NCBI RefSeq assembly: GCF_016097415.1
Contig: NZ_JAEHGE010000001.1
Coordinates: 2,777,157 to 2,841,156 of the forward strand
Reading direction: 5' to 3'
Source: a sulfur-oxidizing endosymbiont of Gigantopelta aegis
Lineage (GTDB): Bacteria; Pseudomonadota; Gammaproteobacteria; GRL18
Length of the DNA: 64,000 nucleotides
The translations under genes were made by a program, and so were the position numbers. Within the stretch, counting starts at the first letter, position 1. Every line of letters starts with the position of its first letter. Positions 4,624-36,980 of this stretch are shown here, one piece after another. The notes under the pieces were generated by a model, which saw nothing but the letters and a program-made list of their open reading frames with translations, did no database searches and was not told the origin of the DNA.

Positions 4624-4667
4624 AACCTTACATGAACATTACATTTAATTAATGTTCATGTAAGGTT
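4624..4667. promoter_or_regulatory. Palindromic metal-regulon operator between divergent genes
   Basis: Perfect 17-bp inverted arms, AACCTTACATGAACATT (4624-4640) and AATGTTCATGTAAGGTT (4651-4667), separated by 10 bp. Each arm is one copy of the regulon box facing one gene. Towards the cytochrome gene a TAAAAT hexamer starts 27 nt after the arm's GTAAGG, and towards the SHOCT gene a GATACT hexamer starts 26 nt after it. The geometry suggests that a dimeric activator serves both promoters. Confidence 0.7.
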
Positions 4668-6081: not shown

Positions 6082-9000
6082 TTACGAAAGCGATGCATTT
6101 TTAGTTTCATCAGTTGAGGGACAGGCTTTAAGTGTCACTGATTTCCATAAGTAATAGATAGCAGGGATCACCAACAAGGTTAATACAACTGAGCTAAGCA
6201 TTCCACCAATCATTGGTCCAGCGATACGTTGCATGACTTCTGAGCCAGTTCCCGAACTAAACATAATCGGAATTAAACCCACAACAATTGCCGCCACGGT
6301 CATAACAATAGGACGAACTCTTTGACCTGCACCCGTCATCACAGCCAATTTTACATCATCTTTAGTTAAACATTGCCCTTTACTTTGTGCATCATCAGCA
6401 AACTTACAATAGGACTGATTCAGATAAACCAACATTAACACACCAATTTCTACTGTCACACCGGCCAAAGCAATAAAACCTACGCCGACAGCAACCGACA
6501 TATCAAACTTGAGTAAATACATAAGCCAGAAACCGCCAATTAATGCGAAAGGTAACGTGCCCATAATGATCATTACTTCAATAATATTTCTAAAGTTAAT
6601 ATAAAGCAGCAAGACAATAATACCTAGTGTTAAAGGAATAACCACTGTCAGGCGTTCTTTTGCTCGCACCATATATTCATACTGACCTGACCAGGCAAGC
6701 GAATAACCAGCAGGAAGTTCTACTTGTTCAGCCACAATACGTTGTGCTTCGGCAACATAAGAACCCAAATCACGACCTTCGATATCAACCAGCGTCCAAC
6801 CATTCAATCGTGCATTTTCACTCTTGATTGCTGGTGGTCCATCAGCGACATAAATATCTGCTACATCCGATAATGCGATGCGTTGATTACTCTTAGTGAC
6901 CAATGGTAGCAATCTGATTTTATCAACAGAATCTCGATAACTCTGAGGATAACGTACATTGATAGGATAGCGTTCCAAACCCTCAATGGATTGGGAAACA
7001 CGCATACCACCAATAGCAGTCATAATAACCTGTTGGATATCCGCTATATTGAGCCCATAACGCGCGGCTTTATCGCGATCAATGTCTGCTTTAATATAAC
7101 GTCCACCGGCGACACGTTCAGAATAAACTGAAGCCGTCCCTTCTACATCTTTAAGCACTAGCTCCAATTGTTTACCGACTTTTTCAATTTCTTTTAAGTC
7201 AGGGCCTGAGACTTTAATGCCAACGGGGGTTTTAATACCTGTTGCTAGCATATCAATTCGAGTCTTAATGGGCATTACCCAGGCATTAGTTACACCTGGA
7301 AATTTAACTAATTTATCCAGTTCTTTACGTAAACTTTCTGTGGTGACCCCCTCTCGCCATTCACTCTTTGGCTTTAATTGAATGGTTGTTTCAATCATGG
7401 TTAGAGGTGCGGGGTCAGTCGCAGTTTCTGCTCGGCCTATTTTACCGAAAACAGTTTTTACTTCCGGAATAGTTTTTATCAGTTTATCCGTTTGTTGCAG
7501 TAATTCTCTTGCTTTACCAATCGAAATACCTGGATAAGTAGTAGGCATATACATCAAATCACCCTCATCTAAGGGGGGCATAAATTCGCTACCAATTTGA
7601 GTGACTGGCCATAAACCAATTGCCAAAACAATACCTGAAATGAAAATCATTGTTTTTGGTGCATCTAAGACGTTTTTGATAATCGGGTTATATATCCAAG
7701 TCACTAGACGATTAACCGGGTTTTTATGTTCGGGTAAGATCTTTCCACGCACAAAGTAACCCATTAATACCGGCACCAAAGTAATAGATAAACCAGCAGC
7801 CATAGCCATTGCGTAGGTTTTGGTAAATGCTAAGGGAGCAAACATTTTACCTTCTTGTGCCTCCAGACTGAATACGGGCAAAAAGCTCATGGTGATAATC
7901 AATAGAGAGAAAAATAAAGGTGGTCCGACTTCAACTGACGCTTCAGCGATAATTTGCCAACGATTTTCATCGGTCAATGGTGTTTTTTCTATATGTTTAT
8001 GAACATTTTCAACCATCACAATAGCACCATCAACCATGGCACCAATAGCAATAGCAATACCACCTAATGACATAATATTGGCATTAAGTCCCTGCGCATG
8101 CATAATAATAAATGCACCGAGAATTCCGATGGGCAGACTGAAAATAATGACCAGTGAAGAACGAAAGTGAAACAGGAAGATGGCACAAATTAATACCACC
8201 ACAATAAATTCTTCTATGAGTTTTTCATACAAATTTTCAACTGCGTGATTAATTAATGTTGAACGATCATAAGTAGGAATGATCTCTACACCTTCAGGTA
8301 AGCCTAATTTTAATTCTTCAAGTTTTTCCTTAACCAGATCAATGGTTTTTTGAGCATTCTCACCAAATCGCATGACGACAAAGGCACCAACCACCTCACC
8401 TTCACCATTTAATTCAGCAATACCACGGCGCATTTGTGGGCCAATAATGACATCGGCAACATCTTTGAGTTGTAATGGTGTGCCATTAACGTTAAGTCCC
8501 AAGGGTACTTTCTTTATATCATCAATGCTGGTCAGATAGCCTGTTGCTGTGACCATATATTCAGCTTCACCTAATTCAAGCACTGAAGCTCCTGCTTCTT
8601 GGTTACCCCGTTGAACAGCTTTTTTAATTAAATCAAGTGGAATGTTATAAGCACGTAATTTTTCTGGGTCAACAATAATTTGATATTGTTTAACCATGCC
8701 GCCAATAGTGGCAATTTCTGACACCCCAGGGACTGTTTGCAATTCATATTTTAAGAACCAGTCTTGTAAACTACGCAATTGACTAATATCGGTTTTACCC
8801 GTTTTATCAACCAGCGCATAACCATAAACCCAGCCCACACCGGTCGCATCAGGCCCTAATTGTGAAGAGGCCGTTGCCGGTAATGAAGAGGCCACTTGAC
8901 TCAGATATTCGAGTACCCGAGAACGTGCCCAATACAGATCGGTGCCTTCTTCAAAAATGACATAAACATAGGAATCACCAAAGAAAGAATAGCCACGTAC

Positions 9001-9243
9001 GGTGATAGCCTTGGGCACTGACAACATGGCTGTTGTCAGTGGGTAAGTCACCTGATCTTCAACAACTTGAGGCGCCTGCCCAGGAAATGATGTTTTTACA
9101 ATCACTTGCACATCTGATAAATCAGGCAAGGCATCAATAGGGGTTTGTTTGACTGAGTAAATCCCAAAAGCAAACATAATCAGGGTGGATAAAATAACAA
9201 AAAAGCGGTTTTTTATCGACCAATGAATAATAGCAGCAATCAT
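6082..9243 (-). CDS. cusA: CusA/CzcA-type heavy-metal RND efflux pump
   Basis: Inner-membrane proton-driven transporter of the HME-RND family, 1053 residues (family ~1040-1060). Seen: N-terminal IIHWSIKNRFFVILSTLIMF helix, DALPDLSDVQVIV, GGIAIAIGAMVDGAIVMVENVHK (proton-relay segment of TM4), methionines in the periplasmic cleft region, and a typical C-terminal permease half ending with MQRIAGPMIGGMLSSVVLTLLVIPAIYYL. It probably exports Cu(I)/Ag(I), judging by the CusF-type domains of its partner; CzcA-type divalent export cannot be excluded. The start abuts the stop of the adaptor gene, so the two are translationally coupled. Confidence 0.95.
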   Translation of the reverse strand: MIAAIIHWSIKNRFFVILSTLIMFAFGIYSVKQTPIDALPDLSDVQVIVKTSFPGQAPQVVEDQVTYPLTTAMLSVPKAITVRGYSFFGDSYVYVIFEEGTDLYWARSRVLEYLSQVASSLPATASSQLGPDATGVGWVYGYALVDKTGKTDISQLRSLQDWFLKYELQTVPGVSEIATIGGMVKQYQIIVDPEKLRAYNIPLDLIKKAVQRGNQEAGASVLELGEAEYMVTATGYLTSIDDIKKVPLGLNVNGTPLQLKDVADVIIGPQMRRGIAELNGEGEVVGAFVVMRFGENAQKTIDLVKEKLEELKLGLPEGVEIIPTYDRSTLINHAVENLYEKLIEEFIVVVLICAIFLFHFRSSLVIIFSLPIGILGAFIIMHAQGLNANIMSLGGIAIAIGAMVDGAIVMVENVHKHIEKTPLTDENRWQIIAEASVEVGPPLFFSLLIITMSFLPVFSLEAQEGKMFAPLAFTKTYAMAMAAGLSITLVPVLMGYFVRGKILPEHKNPVNRLVTWIYNPIIKNVLDAPKTMIFISGIVLAIGLWPVTQIGSEFMPPLDEGDLMYMPTTYPGISIGKARELLQQTDKLIKTIPEVKTVFGKIGRAETATDPAPLTMIETTIQLKPKSEWREGVTTESLRKELDKLVKFPGVTNAWVMPIKTRIDMLATGIKTPVGIKVSGPDLKEIEKVGKQLELVLKDVEGTASVYSERVAGGRYIKADIDRDKAARYGLNIADIQQVIMTAIGGMRVSQSIEGLERYPINVRYPQSYRDSVDKIRLLPLVTKSNQRIALSDVADIYVADGPPAIKSENARLNGWTLVDIEGRDLGSYVAEAQRIVAEQVELPAGYSLAWSGQYEYMVRAKERLTVVIPLTLGIIVLLLYINFRNIIEVMIIMGTLPFALIGGFWLMYLLKFDMSVAVGVGFIALAGVTVEIGVLMLVYLNQSYCKFADDAQSKGQCLTKDDVKLAVMTGAGQRVRPIVMTVAAIVVGLIPIMFSSGTGSEVMQRIAGPMIGGMLSSVVLTLLVIPAIYYLWKSVTLKACPSTDETKNASLS

Positions 9244-11007
9244 TTACAGACCCTCTTTGTTCATTTCGATAATTTCAATGGAACCATCACCGTGTTTCTC
9301 AACTAAGAAATTAAATTCAGTGCCTTCTTTGAGGCTAGTTAAATCCATGGATTTAATGACCGGAAAATCCATTTTCATAGCAGGCCAACCCCAGCTTTTT
9401 ACTGGTTCATGTTCCAGTTTGAGCTTTTGCGCATCAGCCATAATGGTTAAAATTTTACCTTTAATCCATGCTTGATCATTGTTCGCTTTTTTATCCATGC
9501 TATTACTATTAGTCATACCTTCAATTTCAATGAGTTCGATAGAACCATCGTTATATTTTTCGACTAAAAACTTAATATCTTGCTGTGCTTTAAGCGCATC
9601 CATGGCTATGGATTTTTTTACAGGGAAATCCATTAACATATCAGGCCAGCCCCATTCTGCGACGGCCTTATGTTGTATAGTTAACATCTTGTGCCCAGGC
9701 ATTACATCAATGATTTTTCCTTCAATCCATACTTGTGTCTTATCATCAGACATCTCATCGCTGTCACTCATCTCAGCCGGCTCTTCCATTCGGTCAAAAG
9801 AAGCTGTCAGACTCGATTCTGAATCAATCAAAAATTGTGCAGAAGTAACAATGACATCATTTTCTTTCAGACCACTTAATATCTCTATAAAATGACCACT
9901 TTCACTGCCAGTTTTAACGGCAACTGACTGAAACTTTCCATCGCCAAGAGATTTAACAACTCTTTCCATCGTGCCACTGCGAATAATCGCTTCACGTTTA
10001 ACAAATAATGAATTTTTGTTAAAGCTACTATGGATTATTAAACGAGAAAACATATTGGGTTTTAACAATTGGCCGGGATTATTGAAACGAATTCTAACGC
10101 GGAGAGTTCTAGTTTTTTTATCAAGTACAGGATATATGTAGTCGACAATGCCTTTCCATGATTTTTCAGGATAGGATTCCACATTCATATCCACTGTCTG
10201 CCCTTCTTTAACCCAACTACTTTGGCGCTCAAATACTTCGGCAATGACCCAAACAGTATCAATTTGTCCAATGGTTAATACATTCATCGAAGGTTTAACA
10301 AACATACCTTCGAGAATTTTCATATCCTGAATAAAGCCACCTTCTTTAGCAAAATAAGAGACACGTTGTTGAATTTTACGTGTTTTGCCTAGTCTTGCTA
10401 TCTGACCCTTGCTTATCCCCAATGAGATTAAACGATCTTTTGATGCTTTGATTAAAATTCTATTTTGACTTTTTAATGCAGTCACATATTCTTCTTGGGC
10501 ATTAACTAAGGTAGGACTGTAAATTTCAAATAGTTTCTGACCTTTTTTTACCACTTCACCGGTTGCTTTAACCAGTAACTTTTCTACCCAGCCTTCAACG
10601 CGTGTATGCAAATGGTAGAGTTTTTCTTCATCAAAATTAATATAACCCACGGTATCAATTTCACGATCTAGCTGGCCTTTTTTGACTGAACCAGTACGAA
10701 CACCGAGATTGTTTTGTACGATGGGAGAAATTTTAACCACCCCATCTTCACCACCATCGGCTTTATAAAATGGCACTAAATCCATTCCCATAGGTGATTT
10801 GCCTGGCTTATCTCGACGATAATTGGCATCCATTGGTGCCACCCAATAAAGAACTTCTTCTTCATCTGATTTGGCCGCACCCCCAGATGATTCATCCATT
10901 GCAATCAATCCGGATGCTTGTAATTGTTCTTGTAAAAAGGGCTGTGCATAATAACCCGCAACTAAGCCAGTACTGACTAGGATAAAACCTGATAAAAGTT
11001 TATTCAC
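9244..11007 (-). CDS. cusB: CusB-type periplasmic adaptor fused to two CusF-like copper domains
   Basis: Membrane-fusion protein linking the pump to the outer-membrane channel. Order: N-terminal signal/anchor; heavy-metal-binding stretch YWVAPMDANYRRDKPGKSP-MGMDLVPFY (~55-82); biotinyl-lipoyl, hairpin and barrel regions (~95-400); then two consecutive CusF-like domains (~425-500 and ~510-585). Each carries the CusF ligand set in the right spacing: H-x8-W-P-x-M-x-M, seen as HKAVAEWGWPDMLM and HEPVKSWGWPAMKM. In E. coli CusF is a separate periplasmic chaperone that hands Cu(I)/Ag(I) to CusB, so here the chaperone is duplicated and tethered. At 587 residues it is longer than E. coli CusB (~407), which the fusion explains. 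Second gene of the operon, 71 bases after the channel gene. Confidence 0.93.
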   Translation of the reverse strand: MNKLLSGFILVSTGLVAGYYAQPFLQEQLQASGLIAMDESSGGAAKSDEEEVLYWVAPMDANYRRDKPGKSPMGMDLVPFYKADGGEDGVVKISPIVQNNLGVRTGSVKKGQLDREIDTVGYINFDEEKLYHLHTRVEGWVEKLLVKATGEVVKKGQKLFEIYSPTLVNAQEEYVTALKSQNRILIKASKDRLISLGISKGQIARLGKTRKIQQRVSYFAKEGGFIQDMKILEGMFVKPSMNVLTIGQIDTVWVIAEVFERQSSWVKEGQTVDMNVESYPEKSWKGIVDYIYPVLDKKTRTLRVRIRFNNPGQLLKPNMFSRLIIHSSFNKNSLFVKREAIIRSGTMERVVKSLGDGKFQSVAVKTGSESGHFIEILSGLKENDVIVTSAQFLIDSESSLTASFDRMEEPAEMSDSDEMSDDKTQVWIEGKIIDVMPGHKMLTIQHKAVAEWGWPDMLMDFPVKKSIAMDALKAQQDIKFLVEKYNDGSIELIEIEGMTNSNSMDKKANNDQAWIKGKILTIMADAQKLKLEHEPVKSWGWPAMKMDFPVIKSMDLTSLKEGTEFNFLVEKHGDGSIEIIEMNKEGL

Positions 11008-11078
11008 ATCGAAATCCTCAAATTTTCATATACCACAAAAGCTATTTTTTATAAGCTATAGTTATAAATATTATTTTT

Positions 11079-12392
11079 TTAAGTGCCTGTATTATTTTGC
11101 TCAAAACTGGACGTAAAATATAAAATCTTTGCTTTACTCTGCAAATGATCAACGGCAATACGACGTTCATCCAATTTGACATTCAAGTCATCAATATAAG
11201 CACGCATTACATCAGCGAAATCACCACGATCTGACTGATAGGCGAGCAGAGAAGCCTGAGTTTGTTGTTTAGCCTGAGGCATCAGCAAATTGATATAAAG
11301 TTGATGACGGTTTTGCAATTGTTCTTCAACTGCTTGTTGTTGTTGTAAGCTAGCGACAAGTTGACGCAACATACTTACTCTTTTATCTTTTAAGGCTTGT
11401 AATTTATGTTCTTTGGATAAGAGTTTTTTATCCTGTCGATTGGCCGTAAACATCGGCAAATCAAAAGTCACGCCAGCAGAGACAAAATCAGAGCGAGAGC
11501 CACCACCAAATTCTTTTGGCTTGTTGTCACGATAGGCATAGCCAACATTAAGAGCCCAACCGGGTTTAAATGCTTCTTTGGCTAAGGCAATATCTTCACG
11601 AGAAATGTCAATTTGTTTATCGATTTCTTGAATTTTAGGATGGGAGTAAAACAATTGACTCAAGGTTTCAAATTCATCACTGATTTCTGGGATACTTAAC
11701 TCCGGCAATTGACTACTCAGGGCATGAGTACTGTTTTGGTCTCGCACCCAACGGGAAAGTTTAGAGCGTTGCATATTAATTTTTTGCGTGATTTTAACAA
11801 TCCGATCATCCAAACGGCTTAGTTCTAATTGCGCACGAATAAGATCTTGTTGATTATTGCGTCCCACAGAAAACATCGATTGAACAATTTCAACTAATTG
11901 CGAAAAAAATCGTTGATTTTGAACAATTGTTTTTTTGGCTTCTTCCCAATAATATATCTCAAAGTAAGTTAAGCGCACTTCTTTAATAATACTTAACTTT
12001 CGATCAGCAATTTTTGATAAGAATAATTCAGATTGCTTCTGAGTTTTTGCTTGCTTGATACTTAGGGTATCACCTGAGGGGAACTGTTGGATAATACCGA
12101 CCTTAAGTTGGGTCATATTTTCCTGATCAAAATCAAAGGTATCGGTGGGCATGTTTGCCAGTGCCACTTGCATCTTAGGATCATTTAATTGGCCATCAGC
12201 AATCGACTGAGCCGATAATGATTCCATTTGCCATTGTTGGCTAATAATCTCTGGTTCATCTTCAAGCGCCATCGTTTCTGCTGCTTGTAAAGTGAGGATT
12301 GGTGCGGCTAAAGCCATGTTTGAAGCGCCAATAAGATTAAAGCCAATAATCAGTGCAAGAAGCTGTTTTTTTGAATGAAACACCAAGTGCAT
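11079..12392 (-). CDS. TolC-family outer-membrane channel of the metal efflux system
   Basis: Outer-membrane factor (CusC/CzcC type) that completes the tripartite pump. Signal peptide KKQLLALIIGFNLIGASNMALAA, followed by the helical-barrel architecture with long heptad-rich helices (e.g. YYWEEAKKTIVQNQRFFSQL). The start chosen is ATG 12392, preceded by GGGAG at a 6-7 base spacing; a TTG at 12416 would add eight unlikely residues. First gene of a minus-strand operon with the adaptor, pump, P-II-like and DUF411 genes. A palindromic metal box (12501-12540) lies ~110 bp upstream. Confidence 0.92.
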   Translation of the reverse strand: MHLVFHSKKQLLALIIGFNLIGASNMALAAPILTLQAAETMALEDEPEIISQQWQMESLSAQSIADGQLNDPKMQVALANMPTDTFDFDQENMTQLKVGIIQQFPSGDTLSIKQAKTQKQSELFLSKIADRKLSIIKEVRLTYFEIYYWEEAKKTIVQNQRFFSQLVEIVQSMFSVGRNNQQDLIRAQLELSRLDDRIVKITQKINMQRSKLSRWVRDQNSTHALSSQLPELSIPEISDEFETLSQLFYSHPKIQEIDKQIDISREDIALAKEAFKPGWALNVGYAYRDNKPKEFGGGSRSDFVSAGVTFDLPMFTANRQDKKLLSKEHKLQALKDKRVSMLRQLVASLQQQQAVEEQLQNRHQLYINLLMPQAKQQTQASLLAYQSDRGDFADVMRAYIDDLNVKLDERRIAVDHLQSKAKILYFTSSFEQNNTGT

Positions 12393-12500
12393 AATAAACT
12401 CCCAAATTATAATCAATGCCTTATCGCATTAATTAATTATCATCCGTTTTAGTATAGTTATAATTTTAGAGCCTATTCTACGGCCACTACATAACACCAG

Positions 12501-19230: not shown

Positions 19231-19278
19231 TTATTTAATCTTCGTGTAAGGTTTGAGTAAGAATTGATATGGGATAAT
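19231..19278 (+). promoter_or_regulatory. Metal-regulon promoter of the first 61-residue membrane protein
   Basis: Box ATTTAATCTTCGTGTAAGG (19233-19251) followed by a GATAAT hexamer at 19273-19278. The hexamer starts 27 nt after GTAAG, exactly as in the promoter at 20921. A ~150-nt leader with a tandem repeat follows before the start codon. Confidence 0.6.
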
Positions 19279-19305
19279 AACGAGAAAAATAATTAATATA
19301 AATTT

Positions 19306-19416
19306 CTGAACTATTAAATTCTGAACTATTAAATTCTGAACTATTAAATTCTGAACTATTAAATTCTGAACTATTAAATTCTGAACTATTAAATTCTGAA
19401 CTATTAAATTCTGAAC
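19306..19416 (+). repeat. 15-bp tandem repeat in a 5' leader, 7.4 units
   Basis: CTGAACTATTAAATT is repeated seven times without a mismatch plus six more bases. It lies between the promoter and the ATG at 19430. Perfect identity points to recent expansion. It contains no open frame of its own in the sense direction (TAA lies near the unit end), so it would be untranslated leader. Confidence 0.95.
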
Positions 19417-19429
19417 AAAAGAGCAGACC

Positions 19430-19615
19430 ATGATAAATAAAGGCAATGAAAATTTCACAATCAAACTATTATTTATACTGCTAATCACCCTATTATTAAT
19501 AGTATTAACTTTAATGTGGACACAACATAAAAAGTACCACAACTATCAAACAAACCAATATGGCCATTCTGAGGTGGTATTAATAAGTAATGAGGCGAGC
19601 AAGAAATTAAAATAG
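19430..19615 (+). CDS. Small single-span membrane protein, paralogue of 21054-21239
   Basis: 61 residues: charged N-terminus, one hydrophobic helix (KLLFILLITLLLIVLTL), then MWTQHKKYHNYQTNQYGHS with many His, Tyr, Asn and Gln. The same plan and motif (M-W-[ST]-Q-x-H-x-Y-x-N) recur in the second 61-residue protein. The helix is N-terminal with no clear cleavage site, so it is probably a membrane peptide with its tail outside the cytoplasm. The family is not recognised. The shared metal box suggests a role in metal stress. AGAGCAG precedes the ATG. Confidence 0.7.
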   Translation: MINKGNENFTIKLLFILLITLLLIVLTLMWTQHKKYHNYQTNQYGHSEVVLISNEASKKLK

Positions 19616-19658
19616 ATTTATTTTAATTAAAGACTGTAAGCAATTGAAATAAAATCAT

Positions 19659-20654
19659 TTAATGACTATTGCCATGATAAAAAGAATAGGTATTGCGACC
19701 AAGAGATTTAGCGTGATACATCGCATCATCCGCCTGTTTTAATAACTCACTTGAATCAGTCGTGTCATAAGGATAGAGGCTGACACCCACACTAGCACCT
19801 ATATTAATTTGTTGTGACTTAAGATGAAAAGGTAAATGCATTGCCTGTATGATATTTTTAGCTATCAGTGAAATGGTCTGCTCATCAGACAGTGAGTTAA
19901 TAATCATCACAAATTCATCACCGCCTACTCTTGCTAAGAAGTCACTACTACGCTTAACATTATTCATTCTTTGGGCAGCCATTTTTAGGATGGAATCACC
20001 AACATCATGACCATAAGTATCATTAACCGCTTTAAAACCGTCAAAGTCAATGAATAATAAAGCAACAGACATCTCATTACGTTGGGCATAAATGAGCGTC
20101 TGATTTAAGCGTTCATTGAGCAATAGGCGATTCGGAAGTCCGGTTAGATGATCGTGAAATGCCAAGTGCGCTAATTGTTCATCTCTGTCATCGGTATCAG
20201 AAATATCACTGAACACCCCAAAATGATACATTATCTTGCCCGACTTATTTTTGATGACATTGATTGTCAGGAGTTCAAGAAAAACCTCACCATTTTTACG
20301 CTTATTCCACACTTCTCCCTGCCATTGTCCTGTATTTTTAAGTGACTTCCAGAGTCTTTCATAAAATTGTTTGTTATGGCGCCCAGACTGTAAAAAACGA
20401 GGATTATGTCCCATAGATTCGGCCTCACTATAACCTGTGATTTTACTATAAGCATCATTCACACCGATTATTTTATGCTGGCTATCCGTCACTAACATAC
20501 CGTCAGATGAATGGTTATAAATAAGTGAGCTATTAAAGGTATTTTGATTAGTAAAATAAGAAGTAAATGAAGTCATAGCACAACTCAGTTTGTGCATGAA
20601 TAATGATAATAGGCCAATAACCCATTGCATTAAATGACTCAATGACATTCTCAT
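19659..20654 (-). CDS. PAS-GGDEF diguanylate cyclase
   Basis: N-terminal hydrophobic segment (HLMQWVIGLLSLFMHKL), a PAS domain (YNHSSDGMLVTDSQHKIIGV, with GYSEAE and a PAC-like GQWQGEVWNKRKNGE), then GGDEF: HDHLTGLPNR, FIDFDGFKAVNDTYGHDVGD, and an intact RVGGDEF catalytic loop. Makes c-di-GMP. The start chosen is ATG 20654, preceded by GGGGAAG at seven bases; a GTG at 20678 would add eight residues. No RxxD inhibitory site is obvious just before GGDEF. It is encoded on the strand opposite to the metal genes and may be unrelated. A PilZ-type c-di-GMP receptor candidate lies at 42032-44176. Confidence 0.9.
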   Translation of the reverse strand: MRMSLSHLMQWVIGLLSLFMHKLSCAMTSFTSYFTNQNTFNSSLIYNHSSDGMLVTDSQHKIIGVNDAYSKITGYSEAESMGHNPRFLQSGRHNKQFYERLWKSLKNTGQWQGEVWNKRKNGEVFLELLTINVIKNKSGKIMYHFGVFSDISDTDDRDEQLAHLAFHDHLTGLPNRLLLNERLNQTLIYAQRNEMSVALLFIDFDGFKAVNDTYGHDVGDSILKMAAQRMNNVKRSSDFLARVGGDEFVMIINSLSDEQTISLIAKNIIQAMHLPFHLKSQQINIGASVGVSLYPYDTTDSSELLKQADDAMYHAKSLGRNTYSFYHGNSH

Positions 20655-20920
20655 AAACTGACTTCCCCAAGTATTCACTCATTTAAGCAATGCAGCATTG
20701 AAGCTGTAATGCCAGATGAATATTTATTTAAATTACGCTTATTTCTAAGCATAATTTCACATTAGGATTATCTAATTTGATCAAAAAAACATCAACAGCC
20801 TAAAGGTATACAGTTTTAAAGCCTCATTTGAGACTAAAGTCTATTTTCTTTAAGCCTATGATTATAATAGCAGATTTGTAATTTTTTTCATTGATATGTC
20901 TCACACAAGAAACCTAAATT

Positions 20921-20970
20921 ATATTTAATGATGGTGTAAGGTTAGCGACAGAATTCTTATGTGATAATAC
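20921..20970 (+). promoter_or_regulatory. Metal-regulon promoter of the small-protein/two-component operon
   Basis: Box ATATTTAATGATGGTGTAAGG followed by GATAAT at 20963, 27 nt after GTAAG. The stretch GTAAGGTTAGCGACA is identical to that in the cytochrome promoter (minus strand, 4616-4630). The rest of 20655-21053 shows no gene; only AT-rich leader sequence was seen. Confidence 0.65.
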
Positions 20971-21053
20971 AGCCATAGAAAGAAATTAAACCTTAAGTCA
21001 ATCTAAACCTGACTCAATTAAAAAAACGACAAAAAAATTAAGGAGAAATAGTC

Positions 21054-21239
21054 ATGAAAAACACTCACAAGCTAAATATAACATTAAATGCATTGGTTCT
21101 TCTGCTACTGGCATTATTTTTTCTGGCAGGCACTATGATGTGGTCACAAAGTCATCAATACCAGAATCATAGTTATATGCATCAAGATAGTTCCTACGGT
21201 CAGTTTAACTCCATGACTTGGAATAAAGCGGGTCAATAG
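21054..21239 (+). CDS. Small single-span membrane protein, paralogue of 19430-19615
   Basis: 61 residues: KLNITLNALVLLLLALFFLAGTMMWSQSHQYQNHSYMHQDSS. One hydrophobic helix, then a His/Tyr/Asn/Gln/Met-rich tail that could bind metal. Preceded by AAGGAG at seven bases, so the start is firm. It opens the operon that continues with a SHOCT protein, a DUF4399 protein and the CusR/S-like genes. Not a family I recognise. Confidence 0.75.
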   Translation: MKNTHKLNITLNALVLLLLALFFLAGTMMWSQSHQYQNHSYMHQDSSYGQFNSMTWNKAGQ

Positions 21240-21308: not shown

Positions 21309-21512
21309 ATGTTGTGGCTACTTTTATTAGTTGTTTTCGGTGCATTATATCTGTCCCACCAATCCGGTTATCTGGCTCAGACACTGCCTGAGTCACATAG
21401 AAAACAAAAAAATGCACAGGACGTTCTCGATGAACGCTATGCACGCGGTGAATTAGATACCGATGAATATGAGTCAATGAAAGCAACACTGACTCATAAT
21501 CAGACTCACTAA
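21309..21512 (+). CDS. Small SHOCT-domain membrane protein
   Basis: 67 residues: N-terminal helix MLWLLLLVVFGALYLS and a C-terminal SHOCT motif (AQDVLDERYARGELDTDEYESM). Strong ribosome site (GGAGG) before the ATG. Resembles the SHOCT half of the 4762 gene but without the repeat linker. Probably a membrane adaptor in the metal-response operon; no biochemical role is known to me. Confidence 0.82.
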   Translation: MLWLLLLVVFGALYLSHQSGYLAQTLPESHRKQKNAQDVLDERYARGELDTDEYESMKATLTHNQTH

Positions 21513-21580
21513 TTCTTTATCATGAGCAAAACTGGCGGTATAAAAGAGCTTTCTTTTATGCCGTTTTATTGGAATTATCA

Positions 21581-22015
21581 ATGACACTCAATTTAACTGG
21601 CATTACTTTTTATATAGTCTTACTTAATATCGTCATATTTAGTGCAGATATTTCTGCTCATGGGATTCCTGTCCCCATGAATGCCTCAACGTCTATAAAC
21701 TCACCGGCAGATGGCGATACTGTTAGCTCCCCTTTTCTGGTTAAATTCAGCGTTAGAAATTTTATGATCGCACCATCGGGTGAGAATGTTAATCGTGCCG
21801 GTCACTATCATCTTTTAATTAACGTCATTGAGCCGGTAAATTATCATGAAAGTCTGCCTTTTGATCAACAGCACTTAGATTTTGAACAAGGTGAATCAGA
21901 AGTATTACTCAAGTTACCTAAAGGTAAGCATCGCCTACAGCTAGTAGTGGGGGATCAAACTCACGAACCCATAAAGCCCTTGGTTTCTAATCCTATTACC
22001 ATTACTGTTAAATAA
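21581..22015 (+). CDS. DUF4399 secreted protein
   Basis: Signal peptide (TGITFYIVLLNIVIFSADISAHG), then a single beta-rich domain: INSPADGDTVSSPFLVKFSV, NRAGHYHLLINV, LKLPKGKHRLQLVVGDQTHEP, ending ITITVK. This matches DUF4399, a small periplasmic domain with conserved His residues and unknown function. Start at ATG 21581; the TTG at 21569 is in frame but has no better ribosome site. Formerly followed at ~70 bases by the response-regulator gene; an IS1595-type element now separates them. Confidence 0.8.
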   Translation: MTLNLTGITFYIVLLNIVIFSADISAHGIPVPMNASTSINSPADGDTVSSPFLVKFSVRNFMIAPSGENVNRAGHYHLLINVIEPVNYHESLPFDQQHLDFEQGESEVLLKLPKGKHRLQLVVGDQTHEPIKPLVSNPITITVK

Positions 22016-23088: not shown

Positions 23089-23321
23089 ATGCGTATATTA
23101 TTAATTGAAGACGATATCAGTGTTGCTGATTTCATTATCAAAGGCCTCGGTGAAAACAATCATGTTGTCGATCATCAGGCCGACGGCAAAGAAGGATTAT
23201 TTTTTGCCACCACGGAAAACTACGATGTTATGATCGTGGATAGAATGCTCCCAGGCATCGAAGGCTTAACCATTATACGTACTATACGCGCCTCAAATAT
23301 AAAAAACCCCCGTTATTATAC
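23089..23321 (+). pseudogene. OmpR-family response regulator, N-terminal half of split gene
   Basis: MRILLIEDDISVADFIIKGL, acidic pocket DD and the phospho-accepting Asp in DVMIVDRMLPGIEGL: the first ~74 residues of a receiver domain. The frame then enters the left end of the 9.66-kb transposon. The rest (IILSAMADVEQ...) resumes at 32986. One extra C (run of five at 23307-23311) also throws the two halves out of frame, so simple excision would not restore the gene. The start codon touches the IS1595 target duplication. Confidence 0.93.
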
Positions 23322-32903: not shown

Positions 32904-32985
32904 TTAGATATCCCCTTAAATGTTGATTTTACAAGAATAATAGCTTAATTTATCGCATTTATCAACACCTTTATTTATCGGCTTG

Positions 32986-33446
32986 TTATTATACTCAGTG
33001 CTATGGCTGATGTTGAACAACGCGTTGAGGGTCTTCAAAGCGGTGCCGATGATTATCTCGTCAAACCCTTTGCATTTTCTGAATTACTCGCCCGCATTGA
33101 AATACTTGGAAAACGAAATAATTCTTCAGAATCACAAGCACAAGAAACTCAGTTACAAATTGCAGATTTGAAAGTCGACTTATTAACGCACAAAGTCACT
33201 CGCAACAATCAGGACATTACTCTACTTGCAACTGAATATCGCTTATTAGAATACTTAATGCGGAATGCCGGTCATGTTGTTTCACGCACCATGCTATTTG
33301 AGCATGTTTGGGATTATAACTTTGACCCACAAACCAATGTTATTGATGTGCACATGAGTCGCTTACGAAAAAAAATAGATAAGCCTTTTGAATTTCCTTT
33401 GATACATACAATTCGTGGGGCAGGCTATGTTGTCAAAAGCAATTAA
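32986..33446 (+). pseudogene. OmpR-family response regulator, C-terminal half of split gene
   Basis: Resumes as VIILSAMADVEQRVEGLQSGADDYLVKPFAFSELLARIE, with the conserved Ser/Thr-type switch residue and Lys of LVKPF, followed by a winged-helix DNA-binding domain (DLLTHKVTRNNQDITLLATEYRLLEYLM...VWDYNFDPQTNVIDVHMSRLRKKID). Linker and wing are typical of CusR/CopR-type heavy-metal regulators. An internal ATG at 33003 could start a fragment retaining the DNA-binding domain without phosphorylation control. Overlaps the start of the kinase gene, which is the usual two-component arrangement. Confidence 0.92.
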
Positions 33447-33844
33447 ACCAAACCTCAGTAAAGATAAAAATCTCAGTTTAAAGCAGCACATAAGAAAAGT
33501 AATACACAATTCAACCTTTAGAATGGTTATTTTGTATTTTATACTCTTTATTCTTTCCTCACTAATTTTATTGAGTTTTATCTATTGGTCTACTGTTGGC
33601 TATATTTACAAACAATTAGACCATCATATTGAATATGATATGGAAAGACTGCAATTAATTTATAATACTCAAGGAAAAGATGCATTAATAGTTGCCATTG
33701 AAACCAGCTTGCTACAAAAGAATTATGATTCAATTTATTTGCTTTACAATAAAAATACTAAAGAAATTTTTGCCGGCAACTTAAAATACATCCCCAGCAC
33801 ACAAACCAAAACCAAAGGCTGGCATATTATTGAATTAACCGGTT
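33427..33844 (+). pseudogene. Sensor histidine kinase (CusS-like), N-terminal part
   Basis: Start ATG 33427 inside the last codons of the regulator. First transmembrane helix (FRMVILYFILFILSSLILLSFIYW), then a periplasmic domain (HIEYDMERLQLIYNTQGKDAL...TKGWHIIELTG) that is cut by IS3 copy 5 at 33845. It continues at 35926. Metal sensor kinases of this type have a short periplasmic sensor domain between two helices, as here. Confidence 0.88.
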
Positions 33845-34468
33845 TGATGTGTCAACACTTTTCCGGACAGTTTTCTAAATATTTTTTTGGCTGTTTCAAG
33901 TGATTTTTGTCATTTTGTATTTCCTATCATTTTAGTTTCTCATGTTAACTTTAAACAGATGAAGAGAAAGGGCTTTGCCCTCTGGAACGATAGAGCCGTT
34001 CCATTCACCCAAGGTATTTTCACAACGGTAATGATCCTGTTACAATATCTTCACGGCACAGGCTGAGGAGTCGATGGCCGTCAACGGTAATGGGCGGCAT
34101 TTATGTCGCCTTTTACCCCTCTTCAATCAATCGATTTAAGCTATTTCCTGCTGTATTTCATAATCGACTGGTGACAAATAATCATTAGCCGAATGAAGTC
34201 GCTCCCGATTATAAAATACCTCAATATATTCAAATATTGCCTGCTTTGCTTCTACTCTGGTTTTGAATCGACAATGGTGCGTCAATTCAGTTTTCAAACT
34301 ATGAAAGAAGCTCTCTGATACAGCATTGTCCCAGCAATTTCCTTTGCGGCTCATAGACTGAATTATGTTATGATCCGACAATATTTTTCTATGACTATCA
34401 GAGGCATATTGGCTACCTCGGTCAGTATGCCAAAGCAATCCATCCATTGGTTTACGCTTCCATATGGC
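33845..34468 (-). mobile_element. IS3-family element, copy 5 (truncated)
   Basis: Left end TGATGTGTCAACAC at 33845, noncoding tail and orfB C-terminus. Broken off in mid-orfB at 34468, where IS66 sequence starts. Part of a nested insertion in the kinase gene. Confidence 0.92.
34136..34468 (-). pseudogene. IS3 copy 5 transposase orfB, C-terminal fragment
   Basis: Only the last ~110 residues ([20 protein letters not shown] ... [12 protein letters not shown]). Sequence identical or nearly so to copies 3 and 7. Confidence 0.9.
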
Positions 34469-35925: not shown

Positions 35926-36980
35926 AGATGTATTTAAGTTTAAGCAATATTACCCAACAAAAAAATCATTCTGCTCGCACTTTAGTCATGCCCCTACCGG
36001 GTAATTTAATCCTCCTTAATGGTCTTGATATCGAGTCTGCTCATCAACAAGAACACATGATTTTTAATTCCTTAATTACTGGCATTGCAATCATATTGTT
36101 ACTTGGTGCAATCGGTGGTTTTATTATCGGCATCAGTACCATCAAGAAAATCAATCTTATTAATGAAACGATCCGTGAAATAGGTCAGGGAAATTTATCA
36201 TTACGTGTCCCTACACGAGGTAGTGATGATGATTATGATTTACTGGCAATTAATATCAATCAAATGCTCGATCAAATTAATAAGCTTATGCAAGGAATAC
36301 AGAATATATCTAATAATATTGCTCATGATTTACGTACCCCATTAACGCGCTTACGTGGGCACTTAGAAAGCATTGAAAAAAATTCAGATAATGAATCTGC
36401 TAATGATATACGTGAAGCTTTATTAGAAACAGATAATCTATTATCAACCTTCAATGCCATGCTGAGAATCAATAAAGTAGAAAGTGGTGCCAACAAGGGG
36501 CATTTCACCCATTTATCATTAGATCGCTTAGTTTCAGATGTGGTTGAATTTTATGAACCGCTGGCAGAAGACAAAGAAATTAACCTAAGCGTCAAAACGG
36601 ATGCGCCCTACTCTATTGATGCCGATAGAGACATGCTCTTTCAAGTGTTTACTAATTTATTGGATAATGCCATAAAATACACGCCAAAGCAGGGTAATAT
36701 TAGTGTTGATATTTGTTGTATTAATAAAAACAGTACTGATAATATTAGAATAGAAATAGCAGATTCAGGTATAGGCATACCAGAAGGTGAACATAAGAAA
36801 GTATTAGAGCCATTTTATCGACTTGAAAAACACCGTGATCATCAGGGTAATGGTCTTGGTTTGAGTCTTGTTTCTGCCATCATTAACTTGCACAAGGGTA
36901 ATATTGAATTCCAAGACAACCATCCAGGACTTAGAATTTGCATAAACTTACCCCGTTCAAATAATAGTGTTGTAAGTTGA
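35926..36980 (+). pseudogene. Sensor histidine kinase (CusS-like), C-terminal part
   Basis: Rest of the periplasmic domain (from [13 protein letters not shown]), second transmembrane helix (SLITGIAIILLLGAIGGFIIG), HAMP (INETIREIGQGNLSLRVP), HisKA with the phospho-accepting His (NIAHDLRTPLTRLRGHLE), and the ATPase domain with N box (FTNLLDNAIKYTP), G1 (IADSGIGIPEG) and G2 (GNGLGLSLV). All catalytic motifs are intact, so an internal start at ATG 36058 or GTG/ATG sites nearby could give a soluble or singly anchored kinase, but the sensor domain is split by the nested IS insert. Few if any residues seem lost at the junction. Confidence 0.9.

Follow-up and report, generated by a model that had tools for sequence, protein, structure and literature searches.

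The stretch of DNA analysed here (the window) comprises 64,000 nucleotides (nt), positions 2777157 to 2841156 of contig C1, of the genome of a sulfur-oxidizing endosymbiont of Gigantopelta aegis (Gammaproteobacteria; 4.9 Mb, 11 contigs). It carries two short open reading frames (ORFs) on the forward strand. ORF A (19430 to 19615) and ORF B (21054 to 21239) both start with ATG and, as an earlier note on this DNA had read them, both encode 61 residues. The box TTTAAT-N5-TGTAAGGTT, a 19-nt spacer and GATAAT precede each of them (19234 to 19278 for A and 20924 to 20968 for B, forward strand), confirming that the two genes share one promoter type. B is followed on the same strand by genes for a small protein with a SHOCT domain (21309 to 21512; Pfam SHOCT, 30.6 bits, cut-off 27) and a DUF4399 protein (21569 to 22015; Pfam DUF4399, 90.8 bits, cut-off 28), then by a transposase-like ORF, and then by a response regulator and a sensor kinase, each in two pieces. 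tblastn and a genome search placed codons 1–74 of a relative's regulator at 23089 to 23310 and codons 75–225 at 32985 to 33440, and tblastn likewise placed residues 2–141 of a relative's kinase at 33421 to 33846 and residues 141–475 at 35940 to 36953, all on the forward strand. About 9.7 kb of mobile DNA separates codon 74 of the regulator from codon 75, and a further insert of mobile DNA, about 2 kb long, interrupts the kinase near residue 141. The earlier note had missed both this operon and the breaks in it. The 9.7-kb insert contains what look like transposase ORFs and fragments resembling a restriction-modification protein.

Genes for CusA, CusB and an outer-membrane efflux protein lie on the reverse strand (6082 to 12416). 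This CusB carries fused CusF and heavy-metal-binding domains, with CusF in two matched stretches. Between A and B, the opposite strand encodes a PAS-GGDEF protein (Pfam). A is a solitary paralogue, with ORFs of transposase type (named by look) on its 5′ side. Most of its presumed leader is a 15-bp tandem repeat (19299 to 19416; 7.8 copies, 99% match), lying after the promoter and before the start codon; the repeat does not lengthen the protein, because its copies contain in-frame stops (by reading).

The two small proteins and their family

On sequence grounds, A and B are members of a family of putative single-helix proteins of 53 to 73 residues. A profile built from eight orthologues, with A and B left out, scored A at 45.4 bits and B at 56.9 bits, and none of 2,000 segment-wise shuffles of either sequence scored as high (the best gave 26.5 bits for A and 21.4 bits for B). 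The paralogy proposed in the earlier note is thus upheld, whereas two details attached to it did not survive. The equal length of the pair looks coincidental in a family of this span, and the motif M-W-[ST]-Q-x-H-x-Y-x-N holds in B (MWSQSHQYQN) but not in A (MWTQHKKYHN), which has K at the sixth place. The alignment of the orthologues gives the family motif as M-W-x-x-H-x-x-Y-H. A has its M, W, H, Y and H, whereas B departs from it in having S and Q at the two His places.

Eleven positions are invariant in the eight orthologues (in B numbering, K2, K6, N12, L14, L21, M29, W30, H33, Y36, H37 and a tail Trp). B keeps all of them except the two His residues and the tail Trp. A retains 7 of the 11 invariant residues (L, L, M, W, H, Y and H), compared with 10 of the 44 other positions (one-sided P = 0.014). 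W30 is present in both A and B and is missing, together with the M of the motif, from the member in one relative (G018; relatives are numbered throughout). Six orthologue pairs gave pN/pS values of 0.20–0.39, as for translated genes, with synonymous sites saturated in two of the six (B with G012, and G010 with G015). To this extent the values speak against an absence of translation, which the earlier note had named as a refuting outcome; they support translation and do not demonstrate it. Values for A against three others were looser than in the orthologue pairs (0.66–0.90). In a tree of 12 short sequences, support was too weak to fix the position of A.

Of the single N-terminal helix claimed for both proteins, an AlphaFold model of B, a modest one (mean pLDDT 66, and 57 for residues 31–40), shows one helix at residues 3–38 followed by a disordered tail. 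In this model the helix runs beyond the expected end of the membrane; M29, H33 and H37 would then share one side of it, each roughly a turn from the next. Ahead of the predicted hydrophobic core, the net charge ranges from 0 to +3 over 12 sequences; in A it is 0 before the helix and +3 after it, which argues against an N-in arrangement. The most likely, weakly supported topology is that of a single-pass inner-membrane protein, N-in/C-out, which would place the C terminus in the periplasm. Descent of the small protein from the first helix of the kinase itself was considered and rejected, the profile comparison giving a 7-column match with a probability of 0.7%.

A search with B reached 10 of the 96 relatives at E ≤ 0.01, and one with A reached 11; each count includes the window's own genome and some matches judged to be chance (G067 for B, G039 and G023 for A). 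Within the window's order, a profile of ten members, A and B among them (profile A2), matched 13 of 24 genomes, and reading of a contig edge added a fourteenth (G019), so that homologues, whose absence would have told against the earlier note, are present in 14 of the 24. At E ≤ 1e-4, A2 matched 2 of 369 genomes in a sample of the class, both of the window's genus and one the window's own, and 1 of 398 in a sample of the phylum, again the window's own; the matches to its own genome are by construction, since A2 contains A and B. These two samples yielded no family member in any other lineage. The 212 pattern matches in viral contigs included no relative, plasmids gave zero matches (one query, E limit 1), and a scan of genome contigs found nine loci and no genome beyond those already known. 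From their reading frames we dropped G008:C157 and G010:C51 as chance, together with the single-sequence matches in G067, G039 and G023 and at G013:C7.

The earlier note knew of no family for the pair, and no Pfam or NCBIfam model reached its curated cut-off for A or B (matches to E 5) or for the ten members (E ≤ 0.01). The models scanned included small-protein families and CusF; CusF_Ec gave no match, and the best scores were helix matches below threshold. Those with E near 0.01, among them DUF3139, FA_desaturase and cytochrome b561, seem to be noise from the helix, and the one match among solved structures had an E value of 0.56 and was of no use. The family thus lies outside the Pfam and NCBIfam copies used, and is known so far from one order of Gammaproteobacteria.

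The operon and its promoter box

In relatives, the family gene is the first, or nearly the first, in an operon that encodes a CusRS-like two-component system, and in all 11 genomes in which it is linked to the regulator–kinase pair it is upstream on the regulator's strand. The order is small gene, SHOCT, DUF4399, regulator and kinase in G012, G004 and G022, as it is in the window but for the transposase-like ORF and the breaks. SHOCT alone intervenes in G021, and DUF4399 alone in G015, where no SHOCT ORF is among the listed ORFs of at least 50 codons. The small gene directly precedes regulator and kinase in G013, G005 and G010; the ORF in G013 was masked by an overlapping one in the ORF list and was found in a separate reading. 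DUF4399 precedes the small gene in G018, and G019 has SHOCT, regulator and kinase, preceded at the contig edge by the final 16 codons of the small gene. Pfam assigned SHOCT and DUF4399 in the window and in G012; in the other genomes the two are named from resemblance.

A CusC-like gene is divergent from the operon on the same contig in five relatives (G005, G010, G012, G013 and G022), and contig ends repeating the small gene point to a divergent CusC in G015 and G021 as well. G004 has a DUF411-like gene divergent in place of CusC. In two genomes whose small gene lies elsewhere (G007, locus L096, and G001, locus L098), the regulator is adjoined by a gene that resembles those for DUF2282-type proteins.

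Exact copies of the box number four in the genome, compared with about 0.05 expected from a rough base composition, and two of them are those of A and B. With three mismatches allowed, the window contains 19 boxes compared with 15.6 expected; as this is chance level, only near-exact boxes carry weight. Box, 18–19-nt spacer and −10 element were found together by one pattern in 7 of 11 upstream regions of family genes. In G015 the box is exact and the −10 element falls outside the pattern used. By eye, the box of G022 has one mismatch, no box is seen upstream of the member in G018, and the unlinked member of G007 has just a degenerate one. Of the 11 upstream regions scanned, 6 also have a box-like site on the other strand. 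Two boxes, one per strand, lie back to back as a near-palindrome at 4624 to 4667 in the window, flanked on one side by a cytochrome c gene and on the other by a gene whose SHOCT match is below threshold.

The earlier note had called this element a metal box. It is indeed shared, but the name is too narrow, because near-identical boxes in the same genome also precede unrelated genes, for a repeated secreted-type protein and a porin-like protein (named by their look). At four loci (L105, L108, L109 and L115), a box with at most one mismatch precedes repeated genes for secreted-type proteins of about 113–130 residues, with a −10 element that is GTATAGT-like or similar; no tie of these genes to metal was seen. 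The shared box and the place in the operon make the family gene a candidate for expression under its own two-component system, even if the box is not confined to that operon.

The regulator–kinase pair and its co-occurrence with the family

The regulator and kinase of G012 scored best, among the matches listed, with the heavy-metal families TIGR01387 (response regulators; 255.2 bits) and TIGR01386 (sensor kinases; 169.6 bits), but below the curated cut-offs of 279.2 and 292.55 bits. In the sensor region of the 11 aligned kinases, His70 is present in 11, His69 in 10, His150 in 9 and His175 in 8; the kinases of G007 and G001, the two with no small gene beside them, lack His150 and His175, and that of G019 lacks His69 and His175. 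These sensors contain 3–7 His and 1–7 Met residues, and one pattern applied to the 11 found neither a Met triad nor three close His residues. When a model of the kinase (mean pLDDT 65) was compared by fold, the 50 matches listed were almost all to the kinase core, so that the comparison is silent on the sensor, and the absence of the CusS sensor domain from those 50 excludes nothing.

Escherichia coli CusS is reported to bind Ag(I) at the membrane-adjacent residues H42, F43 and H176, with S84, M133, M135 and H145 as further sites (PMC10100754). The present pair resembles the E. coli CusRS/CusF/CusCBA system in being nearest to heavy-metal regulators and kinases, in having CusCBA divergent in several relatives, and in having kinase His residues that adjoin the membrane on either side of the sensor. 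It differs from that system in its below-cut-off scores, in the lack of a Met triad or tight His cluster by the pattern used, in the fusion of CusF to CusB and in the extra small membrane protein that heads the operon. The pattern of His residues in these kinases, together with the missing Met triad, suggests, as an unproven possibility, that the small protein may supply metal ligands or contact in trans.

The regulator, counted at 72% identity or above and with the split copy of the window included, occurs in 13 of the 24 genomes of the order. The family is present in all 13 of these and in 1 of the 11 others (Fisher P = 5.6e-6), a P value that, like those below, overstates the case because the genomes share ancestry; several of the genomes are also fragmented. 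The 13 comprise the 11 linked cases, an unlinked member in G007 and an unlinked, frameshifted member in G001. The sole member without a regulator (G008) is interrupted by a transposase-like gene. Counting linked small genes only, the numbers are 11 of 13 and 1 of 11 (P = 6.4e-4). By contrast, the family is present in 9 of 13 genomes with a CusB orthologue (at least 61% identity) and in 5 of 11 without one (P = 0.41).

The main count set aside regulators of 52–60% identity (in G014 and G020, and as second copies in G010, G019 and G020) and CusB-like proteins of 48–49% (G001, G004, G007 and G008), a cut picked after the list had been seen. Counts at looser cut-offs, which include these proteins, gave 13 of 15 with and 1 of 9 without a regulator (P = 4.9e-4), and 13 of 17 with and 1 of 7 without a CusB-like pump (P = 0.009). 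The regulator still ranks above the pump, with a narrower gap. Because the family follows the CusRS-like system better than the CusB orthologue, the CusS-like kinase would be the likelier partner of the small protein than the pump. The general remark in the earlier note, that the small membrane proteins of metal regulons frequently regulate a pump or a kinase, thus finds qualified support in operon place and co-occurrence. A family that heads the kinase's operon, and is near-inseparable from the regulator in these 24 genomes, would make control of metal sensing by the small protein directly testable.

Possible roles of the small protein

A few single-pass small proteins are known to steer sensor kinases (MgrB, SafA, UgtL and MzrA; PMC8534201). 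According to two articles (PMC8404706 and PMC8534201), MgrB, of 47 residues, inhibits the kinase PhoQ, and a conserved Trp in its helix is needed for contact with the kinase; SafA, of 65 residues, activates PhoQ and is induced by another two-component system, thereby linking the two (PMC8534201). In the part of this literature consulted, no such protein is named for a CusS-type copper kinase. The present family would share with MgrB its small size and single pass, a C-terminal part that is probably periplasmic, presumed control by its own two-component system and a conserved helix Trp. It differs in that no homology was found, in its Met/His/Tyr/Trp motif as against the two conserved periplasmic Cys residues of MgrB, and in leading an operon of regulator and kinase, with kinase contact as a candidate property. 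It would resemble SafA in size, single pass and probably periplasmic C terminus, and differ in sitting with what is presumably its own system.

Given the family, operon, box, co-occurrence and conservation shown here, we tentatively favour a metal-binding membrane protein that acts as an accessory or feedback component of the CusS-like kinase, in the manner of MgrB or SafA. The operon led by the family gene would be a CusRS-like copper/silver operon whose box is probably read by that system. With the regulator driving its own operon, the small protein would build up at high periplasmic Cu(I)/Ag(I). The helix would continue past the membrane and carry Met29, His33 and His37 along one side, flanked by Trp30 and Tyr36, as a surface that binds metal and contacts the kinase. 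There the small protein may touch the membrane-proximal part of the kinase, and either present metal to it or damp it as feedback. The conserved upstream position, the joint occurrence with the regulator, the promoter elements in 7 of 11 upstream regions, the invariant M29, W30, H33, Y36 and H37, the low pN/pS values, the nearest families of regulator and kinase, the membrane-adjacent kinase His residues that recall the reported Ag(I) sites of CusS, and the MgrB and SafA precedents are in its favour. Against it stand the sub-cut-off scores, the two genomes in which regulator and small gene are unlinked (one small gene being frameshifted), the members that lack M and W (G018) or both His residues (B), the charge of A, the 3–7 His and 1–7 Met that the kinase sensors themselves keep, boxes at genes beyond metal handling, the association with the pump at looser cut-offs, the saturation in two pN/pS pairs and the common ancestry of the genomes.

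In this genome kinase and regulator are split and B lacks both family His residues, while A, a solitary second copy behind a promoter of the same type, retains them. It is quite possible that here A and B are remnants of a dismantled operon with no working CusRS pair in control. Besides the breaks and the loss of His residues from B, this is favoured by the looser pN/pS of A and by the next-best regulator in the genome being only 41% identical; unless the box is read by some other regulator, both genes may lack control here. Such reading is possible, given that near-identical boxes stand before other genes, and this counts against a remnant, as do the intact state of both ORFs and both promoters and the conservation of A at invariant positions. 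Locus L100 of G008, where the small gene is interrupted, DUF4399 remains and the regulator search came up empty at E ≤ 1e-60, is a second, separate case of decay of the locus. Such decay is compatible with an accessory role at the kinase for the family as a whole.

Rather unlikely is a carrier or buffer of periplasmic Cu(I)/Ag(I) that is tethered to the membrane, holds metal on its Met/His/Trp helix and tail, and hands it to CusCBA or shields other targets from it without touching the kinase. The residues invariant at the membrane exit would suit it, as would the copper-type gene neighbourhood, often divergent from CusC; but the window's CusB already has CusF domains, the family tracks the regulator better than CusB, and B persists without both His residues. 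Less probable again is a split sensor, in which, in this lineage, the copper-binding loop that E. coli CusS itself carries would be supplied by the small membrane protein, presenting Cu(I)/Ag(I) to the kinase through its helix beyond the membrane (M29, H33 and H37 with W30 and Y36). Metal would then be sensed by kinase and small protein as a pair, an arrangement we likewise regard as unlikely.

AcrZ is a small subunit that works with the AcrB pump, and a similar subunit of a CusA-type pump is a further, very improbable role. It would fit the divergent CusC genes and the looser co-occurrence with CusB-like proteins, but 4 of 13 genomes with a CusB orthologue lack the family, 5 of 11 without one have it, and in G004 and G018 the gene is beside the regulator and away from CusCBA. 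Chance ORFs, alike through the composition of a hydrophobic helix alone, are scarcely credible and for B refuted: short single-helix sequences of this kind do match unrelated profiles weakly, but no shuffle reached either score, the orthologue pairs have low pN/pS values and the place in the operon is conserved.
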